Source: Acidocella sp.
GTDB lineage: Bacteria; Pseudomonadota; Alphaproteobacteria; Acetobacterales; Acetobacteraceae
DNA: 64,000 nucleotides
Assembly (NCBI GenBank): GCA_029077825.1
Contig: JAQNCT010000001.1
Coordinates: 1-64,000 of the forward strand
Direction: 5' to 3'
The notes beneath the pieces are model-generated. The model searched no databases, was not told the DNA's origin, and worked only from the letters and a program-made list of their open reading frames with translations. The position numbers and the translations under genes were made by a program. Below, piece by piece: positions 8,977 through 13,267 of the stretch (position 1 is its first letter; each line of letters starts with the position of its first letter).

Positions 8977-9840
8977 TCAAGGCCACTTCACTTCCGGCGG
9001 CAGCGACATCAAAATCGCTTCAGTGTTGCCGCCGGTTTTAAGGCCGAAAGTAGTGCCACGGTCATACAGTAAGTTAAATTCCACATAGCGGCCACGGCGG
9101 ATCAGCTGGGCTTCGCGTTCAGCTGGTGTCCATGGTTCTGCCATCCGGCGCCGTACTATGGCGGGGTAGGCCGCCAAAAACGCCTCACCAACATCACGGG
9201 TAAAGGTAAAATCCGCCGCCATGTCACCGGTGTTTAAATAATCATAAAAAATCCCGCCGGCACCGCGTGGCTCATTACGGTGCGGCAGGAAAAAATATTC
9301 ATCGCACCATTTTTTGAATTTCTCATAATATGTCGGGTCATTTTTATCACAGGCAGCCTGGTAGGCCGCATGAAAAAACGCAGCATCCTCAGTGGCTTGC
9401 GGCGTGCCAGGTTGCAGCGGGGTTAAATCACCACCGCCGCCAAACCAGCCATCGCCGGTTACAATCATCCTGGTGTTCATGTGCACAGCCGGCACCCGGG
9501 GGCTGCGCAGATGCGCCACCAGGCTGATGCCTGAGGCCCAAAACTGGCCATCATCGGTGGCACCGCGCATCTGTTTGGCAAAATCAGGTGAAAATTTACC
9601 TGTCACGGTGGAGACATTCACCCCCACCTTCTCAAACACTTGGCCACGCATCACGCTCATCACGCCGCCGCCGCCTTCGGGGCGCTGCCAGGGGGTGCGG
9701 ACAAACCGGCCAGGGTTTGGCCCTGCCTCATCCTCAATGGCTTCAAAGGCTTCACATATCCTGTCACGCAAGGCTGCAAACCAAATCGAGACTTCAGGCT
9801 TTAAGGTTTCGTGCGGATTGATTTTGGTAATTTGTTGCAT
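8977..9840 (-). CDS. hemF: Oxygen-dependent coproporphyrinogen III oxidase
   Basis: Converts coproporphyrinogen III to protoporphyrinogen IX in heme synthesis using O2. The 287-residue protein shows the family landmarks: [56 protein letters not shown] with its conserved His residues, [11 protein letters not shown], a [28 protein letters not shown] block and C-terminal [29 protein letters not shown]. It is soluble and cytosolic. It is transcribed away from petA with a 119-base shared promoter region, which places heme synthesis next to a heme protein complex. The need for O2 supports aerobic growth. Confidence 0.97.
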
Positions 9841-9959: not shown

Positions 9960-10520
9960 ATGGCAGATTTAGAGGTTGGTGCAGAAATCAACGAGGTAGA
10001 AACCCTTGTAAGGCGCGATTTTTTAAAAATTCTGACCGTTTCAGCAGGTGCCGTAGCGCTTGGGGCCACAGTCTGGCCGTTTATTAACGCTTTGAACCCA
10101 ACAGCTGATGATCTGGCCATAGCAAACCCCATCATTGAGGTTGGTGCCATTGCCCCAAACAGCGCTGTGCGGGTTATGTGGAACGGCCAGCCGATTTATA
10201 TTCGCAAACTCACCCCCCAGCAGATTGCCGATAATCTGGCCGTGGTGGCATCTTCATTGCCTGATCCAGCTGATTTTACCAGCCGCGTGAAGCCAGGTTA
10301 TGAGAGTTTTGTGGTGGTGGTGGGGTTAAATACCGGTATTCCCTGTGAACTTCTGGGCAATAGCCCAACCGATGCACGCGGCCCGGTTGATGGTTGGACA
10401 TGCCCTTGCGATGGCAGCATTTATGACCCGCTGGGGCGGGTGCGCAGCGGCCCAGCGCCAAATAACCTTGCAATTCCGCGCTTTAGTTTTCTCAACGCCA
10501 CACAAATTCAGCTCGGTTAA
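9960..10520 (+). CDS. petA: Rieske-type subunit of cytochrome bc1, cluster ligands lost
   Basis: Homologue of the ubiquinol-cytochrome c reductase iron-sulfur protein, 186 residues, first gene of petABC. The N-terminus has the twin-arginine membrane anchor (RRDFLKIL, then GAVALGATVWPFINALNP) and the sequence follows the family to the C-terminus. The cluster-binding loops are altered: canonical CTHLGC reads CELLGN (Cys129, Leu131 for His, Asn134 for the disulfide Cys) and canonical CPCHGS reads CPCDGS (Cys148, Cys150, Asp151 for His). Both histidine ligands and one disulfide cysteine are therefore absent, so a normal Rieske [2Fe-2S] cluster should not form. The frame is open throughout and the surrounding residues are conserved, which argues against sequencing error. 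petB starts 15 bases later. Confidence 0.9.
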   Translation: MADLEVGAEINEVETLVRRDFLKILTVSAGAVALGATVWPFINALNPTADDLAIANPIIEVGAIAPNSAVRVMWNGQPIYIRKLTPQQIADNLAVVASSLPDPADFTSRVKPGYESFVVVVGLNTGIPCELLGNSPTDARGPVDGWTCPCDGSIYDPLGRVRSGPAPNNLAIPRFSFLNATQIQLG

Positions 10521-10535
10521 GCAGGAATATATATA

Positions 10536-11657
10536 ATGTCAGACCAAACCAAAACCTGGCTGGGCTCCAGGCTTCCTATCGCGCACAACATTGGCAACCA
10601 GTTATCGCGTAAGCCCTTGGCTGCAAACCAGCCATACCTTGCCGCACTGGGTATGTTGATAACCGCCACTTTGTTGTTTTTGGTGCTCTCAGGCGTGGTG
10701 CTTTCGGCGTATTATGTCGCTGCGGAGCATCGCGCGTTTCAGTCAATCCAGCTCATCATGCGCGATGTTAACGACGGCTGGTTGATCCGCTCTTTCCACG
10801 CCACTGGCACCACCATGCTGTTCGCGGCGGTGTATTTGGCAATTTTCCGGGCCTTGGTCACCGGTAGTTACCGGCTGCCAGGTGAGTTGGTGTGGAGCCT
10901 TAAATTGGTATTTTTGTTGTTGATGTTGCTGGTTGGCTATTTGGGCTACGCCATGCAGGACAGCGCGGTTAGTTATTGGAGCCTGCATGGCGTGGTGCAA
11001 ACCGGTGCTGGTCTGGCAAGCTTTCCGGCTAATATTTTTAACTGGGTGTTTGGTGGCCCCGCCGGCCCTGGCACACTTACCAGGCTTGCCGTGATGCATG
11101 GGCTGTTAACATTCATTGCGCTGGGCGTGCTGGCTTTACATTATTTTGCCAAGCAGGCCATTACCCCGCCTGCTGAAAAAACTGTGCCGCTGCACCCGTA
11201 TTACACCAGCCACCATTTTGTGGCGGCGGGCGTTTATGTGTTGCTATTTGCGGTGCTGGTGTTTTTTGCCCCCCATTTAGGTGAAAACCCCTTGAACCAG
11301 GCGCCTGCCAACCCGCTGCTGGTGCCCGCCGTAACAACGCCGCCCTGGTACTTGCTGCCAGCCACCGCCTTAACCCATGCACTGCCGGGCACCAACGGGG
11401 GTATTATCGCTTTTATTGCCGCCTTTGCCGTGTTGTTTGGCATGCCCTGGCTGGACCGTTCAGCCCCTGGTGCGCGGCCCGGTTTTTTATACAAGCTGCT
11501 GGTGGTTGTTCTGGCACTTGATGTGATTGCCCTTTGCCTGGTTGCTGCCGCCGGGCCATCAACTATCAATGCAGTGTTAACCATTGTTTTTATCGGCTGG
11601 TATTTTCTACATTTTCTGGTGCTCACCCCACTCGCCACCGCGCGGGAGTTAAATTGA
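10536..11657 (+). CDS. petB: Cytochrome b subunit of bc1, divergent
   Basis: Polytopic cytochrome b homologue, 373 residues, slightly short for the family. Conserved parts include IMRDVNDGW before helix B, the GGPAGPGTLTRL stretch before helix D and the C-terminal PWLD. Of the four heme histidines, three remain: His88 in helix B, and His188 and His202 in helix D. The fourth, at the position of the second helix-B histidine (VYIHIFR in canonical proteins), is Ala102 (VYLAIFR). By family numbering this removes one ligand of heme bH (Qi side). The Qo-site PEWY is PPWY (269-272), and the canonical PWGQMS before the cd helices reads QDSAVS. The gene ends in TGA overlapping the petC ATG. Confidence 0.88.
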   Translation: MSDQTKTWLGSRLPIAHNIGNQLSRKPLAANQPYLAALGMLITATLLFLVLSGVVLSAYYVAAEHRAFQSIQLIMRDVNDGWLIRSFHATGTTMLFAAVYLAIFRALVTGSYRLPGELVWSLKLVFLLLMLLVGYLGYAMQDSAVSYWSLHGVVQTGAGLASFPANIFNWVFGGPAGPGTLTRLAVMHGLLTFIALGVLALHYFAKQAITPPAEKTVPLHPYYTSHHFVAAGVYVLLFAVLVFFAPHLGENPLNQAPANPLLVPAVTTPPWYLLPATALTHALPGTNGGIIAFIAAFAVLFGMPWLDRSAPGARPGFLYKLLVVVLALDVIALCLVAAAGPSTINAVLTIVFIGWYFLHFLVLTPLATARELN

Positions 11658-12379
11658 TGAAATTTGGCATTTTTGCTGCCGCTTTATTGGCGGCTCCGCT
11701 TGGTTTTGGCGCCACTGCCCATGCTGAAGACACGCTGGTGCCGCTGCATTGGCAGTCCCAAGGTACTTTTGGCTCTTATGACCAAGCTGCCCTGCAACGT
11801 GGGTTTTTGGTGTATCAAACTGTTTGCGCCAGCTGCCATTCAGCCAGCGCGGTGCATTACCGTGACCTGACTGCCCTTGGCCTGACCACCGAACAAGTGG
11901 CTGACCTGATTGCCAATATAAAGCAGGACAACCAACCCGTTACATTGAACAGCCGCCTGATTGGCGCACTTCCCAAAGCCCAGGCCGCTGCCACGTTTGG
12001 CGGCGCGATCCCGCCTGACCTCTCGAACATGGTTGCCGCTAGGCCCAAGGGGGTGGCTTATGTTTACCATTTGCTCACCGGGTACCAGCCTGCCCCCGCT
12101 GATGTAACCCTGATGGCGAAGCATTATTACAACGCGGCCTACCCCGGCAACCAAATTGCCATGCCAGCCCCGTTGACGGATAATGCTGTCACTTATGCCG
12201 ATGGCACCAAGGCCACCACCGCGCAGGAAGCCTCTGATGTCGCGGCGTTTTTGTCTTGGGTATCAGACCCCAACCTTGATGCGCGCCGGCAGATTGGCTT
12301 GAGAGCGGTGATCTTCCTGATTTTCCTCACGCTGCTGGCGATCGCTACCAAGCGCAAAATCTGGCGAGACGTGGGGTAG
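11657..12379 (+). CDS. petC: Cytochrome c1 subunit of bc1
   Basis: Membrane-anchored periplasmic cytochrome c1, 240 residues. A Sec signal peptide covers about 1-23 (ending TAHA). CASCH at 57-61 binds heme c covalently, and AMPAPL further on supplies the likely axial Met. The motifs PPDLSNMVAARPKG and YNAAYPGNQIAMP match the family, and a C-terminal membrane helix (AVIFLIFLTLLAIATKRKIW) anchors it. Unlike petA and petB, the functional residues look intact. The start ATG overlaps the petB stop by one base. The longer frame to 11534 runs inside petB and is not used. mtnP follows after 6 bases, so the operon probably continues. Confidence 0.93.
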   Translation: MKFGIFAAALLAAPLGFGATAHAEDTLVPLHWQSQGTFGSYDQAALQRGFLVYQTVCASCHSASAVHYRDLTALGLTTEQVADLIANIKQDNQPVTLNSRLIGALPKAQAAATFGGAIPPDLSNMVAARPKGVAYVYHLLTGYQPAPADVTLMAKHYYNAAYPGNQIAMPAPLTDNAVTYADGTKATTAQEASDVAAFLSWVSDPNLDARRQIGLRAVIFLIFLTLLAIATKRKIWRDVG

Positions 12380-12385
12380 CACGCG

Positions 12386-13267
12386 ATGTCTGAGGTCATC
12401 ACGCCGGTCATCGGCATCATTGGCGGTTCAGGTCTCTATGATATTGAGGGGCTAACCGATAAGCATTGGGAAAAGGTGGAATCGCCCTGGGGTGAGCCTT
12501 CCGATGAACTGCTGATCGGCCAGTTTGAAGGCACCAAGGTGGCGTTTCTGCCTCGTCATGGACGCGGCCATCGCATCTCCCCGTCCGAGCTGAACTACCG
12601 CGCCAATATTGACGCGCTGAAGCGCGTTGGTGTGACCGACATTCTCTCGCTCTCGGCGGTCGGTTCATTGAAGGCCGAATTGCCACCTGGGCATTTTGTG
12701 ATCGTTGACCAGTTCATCGACCGCAGCTTCGCCCGCGCCAAAACATTTTTTGGTACAGGTTGCGTTGCCCATGTTTCAATGGCGCAGCCAGTGTGCCCAC
12801 GGTTGGGTGATGCGCTGGAGGCTTCGGCCAAGGAACTTGGCCTGCCTGTAACACGCGGCGGCACGTATCTGGTGATGGAAGGGCCGCAATTCTCCACCCT
12901 GGCGGAGAGCAATCTCTACCGCTCCTGGGGCTGCTCCGTCATCGGCATGACCAATATGCCAGAAGCCAAATTGGCCCGCGAAGCCGAGATTTGTTACGCA
13001 ACCGTGGCCATGGTAACTGACTTTGATTGCTGGCACGAGGACCATGACGCCGTAACCGTGGATGCCGTGATCAAGGTTCTGCTCGGCAATGCCGATAAGG
13101 CACGCAGCCTGGTTAAAGCGGTGTTACCAAAAATTGGTGCCGAACGCGGGCTATGCCCAGCCGGCTGTGACCGTGCGCTGGAATACGCACTGATCACCGC
13201 GCCAGCCGCGCGTGACCCGCAGGCCTTGGTAAAGTTGCAGGCTGTAGCTGGGCGGGTTTTAGCTTAA
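12386..13267 (+). CDS. mtnP: S-methyl-5'-thioadenosine phosphorylase
   Basis: Phosphorolyses methylthioadenosine to adenine and methylthioribose-1-phosphate in methionine/polyamine salvage. The 293-residue protein has the N-terminal GIIGGSGLYDIEGL, phosphate-binding PRHGRGHRISPSELNYRANIDALK, and the GTYLVMEGPQFSTLAESNLYRSWGCSVIGMTNMPEAKLAREAEICYA block that binds base and ribose, plus DFDCWHEDHDAV, typical of MTAP over purine nucleoside phosphorylases of other types. Its ATG lies 6 bases after petC, suggesting cotranscription with the bc1-like genes, for which there is no obvious biochemical reason. A 22-bp palindrome spans the stop codon. Confidence 0.95.
   Translation: MSEVITPVIGIIGGSGLYDIEGLTDKHWEKVESPWGEPSDELLIGQFEGTKVAFLPRHGRGHRISPSELNYRANIDALKRVGVTDILSLSAVGSLKAELPPGHFVIVDQFIDRSFARAKTFFGTGCVAHVSMAQPVCPRLGDALEASAKELGLPVTRGGTYLVMEGPQFSTLAESNLYRSWGCSVIGMTNMPEAKLAREAEICYATVAMVTDFDCWHEDHDAVTVDAVIKVLLGNADKARSLVKAVLPKIGAERGLCPAGCDRALEYALITAPAARDPQALVKLQAVAGRVLA

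Follow-up and report, generated by a model that had tools for sequence, protein, structure and literature searches.

The locus described here raises the question of why an acid-loving bacterium should retain both haem c1 and an aa3-type oxidase once quinol, as it appears, can no longer feed them through a cytochrome bc1 complex. It lies in a stretch of 64,000 nucleotides from an Acidocella sp. genome (GCA_029077825.1, contig JAQNCT010000001.1, positions 1 to 64,000), referred to below as the window, in which positions 9960-12379 of the + strand hold three open frames, petA, petB and petC. A preliminary description of this DNA had read them as three intact frames with tight spacing, and this is borne out: a gap of 15 nt separates petA from petB, the petB stop and the petC start share 1 nt, and selection maintains all three. 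The genes of the operon and its divergent neighbour are as follows.

9960..10520, + strand: petA, a Rieske-type ISP of 186 aa, with a Tat-like signal (RRDFLK) and a Rieske-fold head, its cluster site lost; TIGR01416 over cut-off
10536..11657, + strand: petB, cytochrome b, 373 aa; PF00033, PF13631 and PF00032 over cut-off
11657..12379, + strand: petC, cytochrome c1, 240 aa, with CASCH and, as judged by eye, a signal peptide and a C-terminal anchor; PF02167 at 4.7e-67
8977..9840, - strand: hemF, a divergent neighbour outside the complex, conserved beside the operon

The NCBIfam profile search identified petA as a Rieske ISP (TIGR01416, 3.4e-39) and the Pfam search identified petB as a cytochrome b (PF00033, 2.1e-32; PF00032, 1.1e-14); bc1 subunits were the closest solved chains for all three products. 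A frameshift or pseudogene reading was rejected, since no stop interrupts the frames and all three genes have a dN/dS under 1. The search for a canonical petABC elsewhere in the host, which the preliminary description had called for, returned a single PF02167 and a single PF00033 match in the whole genome, an assembly of 112 contigs with a listed completeness of 100%, so that these profiles gave no sign of a second bc1.

The genus of the host was sampled through 37 genomes, host included, 34 of which had a c1 match; a 38th (G178) was added from an order-wide draw. The three genomes with no c1 match (G024, G030 and G031), which are 77-89% complete, gave no rows. Operon regions of 34 other genomes (L036-L069) were compared beside the window, making 35 loci, and the full petABC trio was present in the window and in 33 of the 34 others, the exception (L040) being cut by a contig end. 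The ISP was readable in 34 of the 35 loci (L040 being the one cut, and L062 partial), cytochrome b was read in all 35 (L040 is partial and does not cover the sites of H83, H97, H182 and H196), and c1 was also read in all 35 (L063 is partial). A scan of named genomes for cytochrome b yielded five distant relatives only, and the comparison thus covers no named genomes of the same genus. The neighbouring gene that we take to be hemF, a name also seen on an annotated match in a database search, adjoins the operon in 32 of the 35 loci, and the three loci that do not show it sit on contigs of 3.8-6.0 kb. On the other side, 6 nt past petC and on the same strand, starts a 293-aa frame (window 12386-13267), presumably methylthioadenosine phosphorylase (mtnP); it was seen downstream in at least 10 of the 35 loci, a lower bound where the stretches are short.

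The first feature to set this trio apart is found in the ISP, where the two loops that carry the cluster ligands are altered. Residue numbers called canonical follow what we take to be the canonical bc1 scheme.

10329..10337, + strand: first ligand loop of the ISP, with N124 (canonical C139) and G126 (canonical H141); N in 34/34 readable genus rows at the former position, G (28 rows) or A (6 rows) at the latter
10401..10412, + strand: second ligand loop, with C148 (ligand C158, kept), C150 (disulphide C160) and D151 (canonical H161)

In the MAFFT alignment GLNTGIPC lies ungapped opposite the canonical GVCTHLGC, and CPCDGS opposite CPCHGS, a register in which the first Cys/His ligand pair reads N/G; a pairwise phmmer alignment is shifted at this first loop, where the pairing of GLNTGIPC with GVCTHLGC is the better one. 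Where a canonical bc1 has its Rieske ligands as C-x-H and C-x-x-H, the window therefore reads N-x-G and C-P-C-D, so that three of the four cluster ligands are gone (C139 to N, H141 to G, H161 to D) and C158 and the C144/C160 pair are retained. The same pattern was observed throughout the genus: C139 is N and H161 is D in all 34 readable ISPs, window included, and C158 is kept in 22 rows and replaced by S in 12, which means that three ligands are lost in 22/34 (the window among them) and all four in 12/34. C144, C160, S163 and Y165 were retained in 34/34, and a Tat-type N-terminus was present in all 33 rows that hold this region (RR, or KR in L041, L045 and L053). The AlphaFold model of the ISP, built on a six-row alignment, was of moderate quality (mean pLDDT 59.6, with blocks from residue 51 on at 56-79); its residues 53-186 matched the bovine Rieske protein 1rie with Z 14.7 and rmsd 2.2 over 124 aligned residues, and the Rieske head fold has thus been retained.

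Cytochrome b has likewise been altered, at one of its two haem sites and in the regions associated with quinone.

10797..10799, + strand: H88, a ligand of haem bL (canonical H83), kept; 34/34 readable genus rows
10839..10841, + strand: A102, replacing the bH ligand H97 (alignment, genus survey)
11097..11099, + strand: H188, a ligand of haem bL (canonical H182), kept; 33/34 readable genus rows
11139..11141, + strand: H202, the second bH ligand (canonical H196), kept without its partner (alignment, genus survey)
11340..11351, + strand: PPWY where canonical cytochromes b read PEWY; the E is replaced by P in 35/35

A canonical cytochrome b has two histidines for each of its b haems; in the window the bL pair is present and the bH pair is broken (H97 to A). 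Both bL histidines were found in 33/34 readable genus rows, the exception being L055, in which H182 is Leu and whose genome (G020) is 77% complete and 6% contaminated. Both bH histidines were found in none of the 34: H97 alone is kept in 9, H196 alone in 9 and neither in 16, a class to which L047 was assigned through an alignment gap at H196. We infer from this that haem bH is lost; the single histidine present in 18/34 rows, window included, might nevertheless hold a five-coordinate haem. In the literature, H212N is named as the so-called bH knock-out, and b haems are said to be capable of His-Lys ligation (PMC4807273). The WGQMS segment is also altered in the window, and the Qi region reads H-H in place of the canonical K-D; the W and Y of PEWY are retained in all 35 genus rows. 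The AlphaFold model of cytochrome b, computed from a four-row alignment, was unusable (pLDDT 38.9), and its fold is here taken from the sequence.

These observations bear directly on the preliminary description, which had held that the two partners of c1 are stripped of key residues. This is confirmed, for three Rieske ligands and for one bH histidine and other residues of cytochrome b; as it had advised, trios with the same losses were looked for in other genomes, and both the ISP ligand losses and the broken bH pair recur in 34/34 readable genus rows and are thus not due to chance. Of its claim of a disabled quinol site, the lost Rieske site is supported; PPWY alone is no proof, and the loss of PEWY as evidence of a dead quinol site was rejected, since PVWY occurs in the bc1 of P. 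aeruginosa (8smr_I) and in L005 and L006. Its suggestion of a complex that binds quinone without oxidising it loses weight, since neither the glutamate of PEWY nor the K-D pair of the Qi region occurs in any of 35 genus rows; its other two options, an anchoring or assembly unit for c-type cytochromes and a periplasmic electron tap, are conjectural.

Cytochrome c1, on the other hand, carries what a canonical c1 carries, namely CxxCH, the axial Met and, by eye, a C-terminal anchor.

11825..11839, + strand: CASCH, the haem-c attachment site (sequence, alignment)
12161..12163, + strand: M169, the axial Met of haem c1 (alignment, genus survey)

CxxCH and Met were found in 35/35 genus loci, and the idea of a bc1-derived complex with an intact c1 holds for the CASCH and Met, with signal peptide and anchor recognised by eye. 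A second, partial c1 (L073; G016:C237:16-396) lies at a contig end in a genome whose full trio is on another contig (C107); it is a duplicate, strain variation or contamination, and was left out of all residue counts.

The median NG86 dN/dS was 0.29 for the ISP (460 pairs), 0.45 for cytochrome b (477 pairs) and 0.25 for c1 (376 pairs), compared to control medians of 0.15 for hemF (348 pairs) and 0.10 for mtnP (22 pairs); pairs were limited to dS 0.1-1.5 and are non-independent, the deep ones being near saturation. Purifying selection acts on each of the three, least on cytochrome b, and as the ratio of the latter is about 3 times that of the hemF control, some of the complex may be subject to drift. 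The fewest changes required on a tree were 1 for C139, 1 for H161 and 4 for C158 in the ISP; 5 for H97, 3 for H196, 0 for H83 and 1 for H182 in cytochrome b; and 0 for the Met of c1. This was a quick tree of the three joined proteins (38 rows, 34 from the genus and 4 from outside, L040 excluded), in which gaps were scored as loss, the ligand columns were retained, 10 of the 35 inner branches are weakly supported and the outgroup branches are long. Our reading of these counts is that the Rieske site was lost once, ancestrally, that bH was changed repeatedly, and that bL and c1 were steadily held. The residue pattern in the genus points to c1 and bL as the target of selection, and not to the Rieske cluster or bH.

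The host carries the genes of an aa3 oxidase with the CuA and haem-ligand motifs that we take to be expected of this enzyme. Among the 38 genus genomes, CoxB of the aa3-type oxidase was over cut-off in 34 and CtaD in 26, with shorter, lower-scoring matches to the latter in several others; CcmE was found in 35 and a bd oxidase in 30, the host having two copies. The alternative raised in the preliminary description, that such species have only quinol oxidases, is contradicted by the presence of CoxB beside the bd oxidase. The host also has eight PF00034 matches and a fragment at a contig edge (G000:C14:2-337) that scores 97 bits against the C-terminal part of the CtaD profile and possibly belongs to a bo3 oxidase.

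What role could such a trio then serve? With the cluster site of the Rieske protein, the bH pair, the glutamate of PEWY and the K-D residues of Qi all lost, the Q cycle should no longer be possible, and the trio is in all probability a former canonical petABC whose Q-cycle function has been lost. The parts that survive would be an exported Rieske-fold subunit, a cytochrome b able to hold bL and a normal haem-c1 subunit; to judge from the residues retained, the complex is probably still made and assembled, with the bL and c1 haems inserted and the cluster and haem bH absent. The best explanation for the whole, to which we assign a probability of roughly 0.7, is that a deranged bc1 has been kept as a membrane scaffold that would present cytochrome c1 on the periplasmic side, close to the oxidase or to further complexes. 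In such an arrangement c1 might relay electrons to the aa3 oxidase from non-quinol donors, or the scaffold might hold respiratory complexes together; that a trio which no longer runs the Q cycle does serve as scaffold or relay is in itself a proposal with about even odds. A more specific and clearly tentative version is that the trio has been re-purposed and is not dying: a cluster-free Rieske head, with its fixed N139 and D161, would be locked onto cytochromes b and c1, and the bL/c1 complex would form a fixed periplasmic electron entry port to the aa3 oxidase for a non-quinol donor. The operon is a naturally occurring example of a respiratory complex that selection has maintained beyond the loss of the sites for its catalysis.

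Several other explanations have to be weighed against the c1-presenting scaffold. The established mechanism requires the Rieske cluster to pass an electron to c1 for quinol to be oxidised. An altered but working quinol oxidase, which would dispense with the cluster and use, for instance, bL, could draw on the bL pair (33/34) and on the W and Y of xPWY (35/35), which are kept; with the cluster ligands gone, however, the carrier between the Qo region and c1 is missing under that mechanism, and there are changes too at the glutamate of PEWY, in the WGQMS segment and in the K-D pair of Qi, so that we consider this enzyme highly improbable. A relic in slow decay, functionless and kept since its loss is recent or partial loss is harmful, would account for the dN/dS of 0.45 in cytochrome b, above the controls of 0.15 and 0.10, for the repeated changes at the bH ligands and C158, and for the state of two loci of another family genus (L070 and L071 of g51), at which the ISP gene was not seen and one of which (L071) has a c1 with no Met region. 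Decay is nevertheless not expected to spare N139, D161, the disulphide pair and the haem-c1 ligands, all of which are invariant, nor does it sit well with dN/dS below 1 or with a trio still readable in 33 of the 34 other genus loci despite cytochrome b identities down to 33%. A mere relic is therefore unlikely, although less so than an altered oxidase.

The remaining explanation, that the dead bc1 is kept purely as a structural partner which Complex I needs for its stability, was proposed in print (PMC10715153, as set out in its text) and agrees with the wide occurrence of Complex I in the genus: NuoD was matched strongly (E-value no higher than 1e-80) in 33/38 genomes, and of the five others, two (G001 and G028) have NuoF over cut-off and three (G020, G033 and G036) do not. 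One of these three, the 96% complete G036, has all three pet genes (L068) with neither strong NuoD nor NuoF over cut-off, which speaks against such a role, but its lack of Complex I could reflect one missing contig. The family provides a wider comparison. A cytochrome b match is absent in 16 of the 150 genomes drawn from the order, and 12 of these 16 family genomes have strong NuoD as well as NuoF matches, the latter over the curated cut-off in four and at 539-549 bits (vs 558.65) in eight; the NuoD frame is of stand-alone length in four of the 12. The other four (G107, G110, G113 and G119) have weak NuoD only and no NuoF match. Complex I is therefore not generally dependent on bc1 in this family, its genes occurring without bc1 and perhaps, in G036, the trio without Complex I. 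In addition, a purely structural partner would not predict invariant c1 ligands (35/35) and a bL pair held in 33/34, except where folding depends on the haems. The published proposal is weakened by the family comparison, and for the genus we regard it as doubtful, if still less so than the relic. The host itself has four strong NuoD matches (G000:C86:107809-108621, and on C76, C111 and C109) and a weaker fifth, one being of stand-alone length and two frames being long enough for a NuoC-NuoD fusion; there are thus several Complex I operons in its 2.55 Mb genome.

Among known systems, an alternative complex III is another means by which an aa3 oxidase could operate in the absence of a canonical bc1. 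Two NrfD-like integral subunits are, we assume, the mark of such a complex; NrfD was found in just 2 of 20 genus genomes tested (the host being one), one copy each, and in none of the other 18, and an alternative complex III replacing bc1 was rejected on this scarcity and on the single copy in the host. That copy is a NrfD-type membrane subunit at G000:C69:3799-4698, seen otherwise in one of the 20 genomes. Canonical bc1 complexes, such as those of Rhodobacter and Paracoccus (2fyn, 2yiu), share with the trio homologous subunits and the Rieske head fold. Three of their cluster ligands are missing from the window, as are one ligand of bH, the glutamate of PEWY and the K-D residues of Qi.

The closest counterparts are the 'deranged' bc1 complexes described by Degli Esposti et al. 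(2023; PMC10715153). The petBC of Acidiphilium treated there, probably our L070 (G128) and L071 (G207), resemble the window in that the bH histidines are absent and the bL histidines are kept; hemF adjoins both loci, and mtnP was seen beside L070. Unlike the host, which has all three genes, neither locus had a detectable ISP gene, and both the missing ISP gene and the missing bH histidines agree with what the paper states for Acidiphilium. In L071 c1 is shortened and the Met is missing at the ligand position, so that here the same loss has gone further.

For Acidocella itself the text of that paper reports an ISP with three or four ligands lost and the disulphide Cys couple kept, bH ligands lost partly or wholly, an intact c1 and a cytochrome oxidase that all the same seems functional in the majority of Acidocella and Acidiphilium taxa, together with the structural role for Complex I considered above. 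The present trio agrees with this on every feature compared with the paper's text, as distinct from its supplementary figures: all three petABC genes occur in the window and in 33/34 other loci, three (22/34) or four (12/34) ISP ligands are lost with the Cys pair kept in 34/34, one bH His is lost in 18/34 and neither is left in 16/34, the c1 ligands are present in 35/35, and a cytochrome oxidase is present besides. The preliminary description, which knew of no such complex, is thus superseded on this point: the trio is in all probability the already reported deranged bc1 of Acidocella, a kind in print since 2023. Within the analysis, the assignment to Acidocella follows from this signature and from a family shared with genomes that have a canonical bc1; a 16S search of the host assembly gave no match, and of 178 records matched among named plasmids, the 8 listed belong to other genera at 66.5-69.5% identity, one unlisted record lies at 80-90%, and none covers 80% of the query. 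To the published text the present analysis adds the N and D substitutions, invariant in 34/34, the retention of bL in 33/34 beside a bH pair broken in 34/34, dN/dS below 1 in all three genes, CoxB in 34/38 genomes and Complex I genes in 12 of 16 family genomes with no cytochrome b match.
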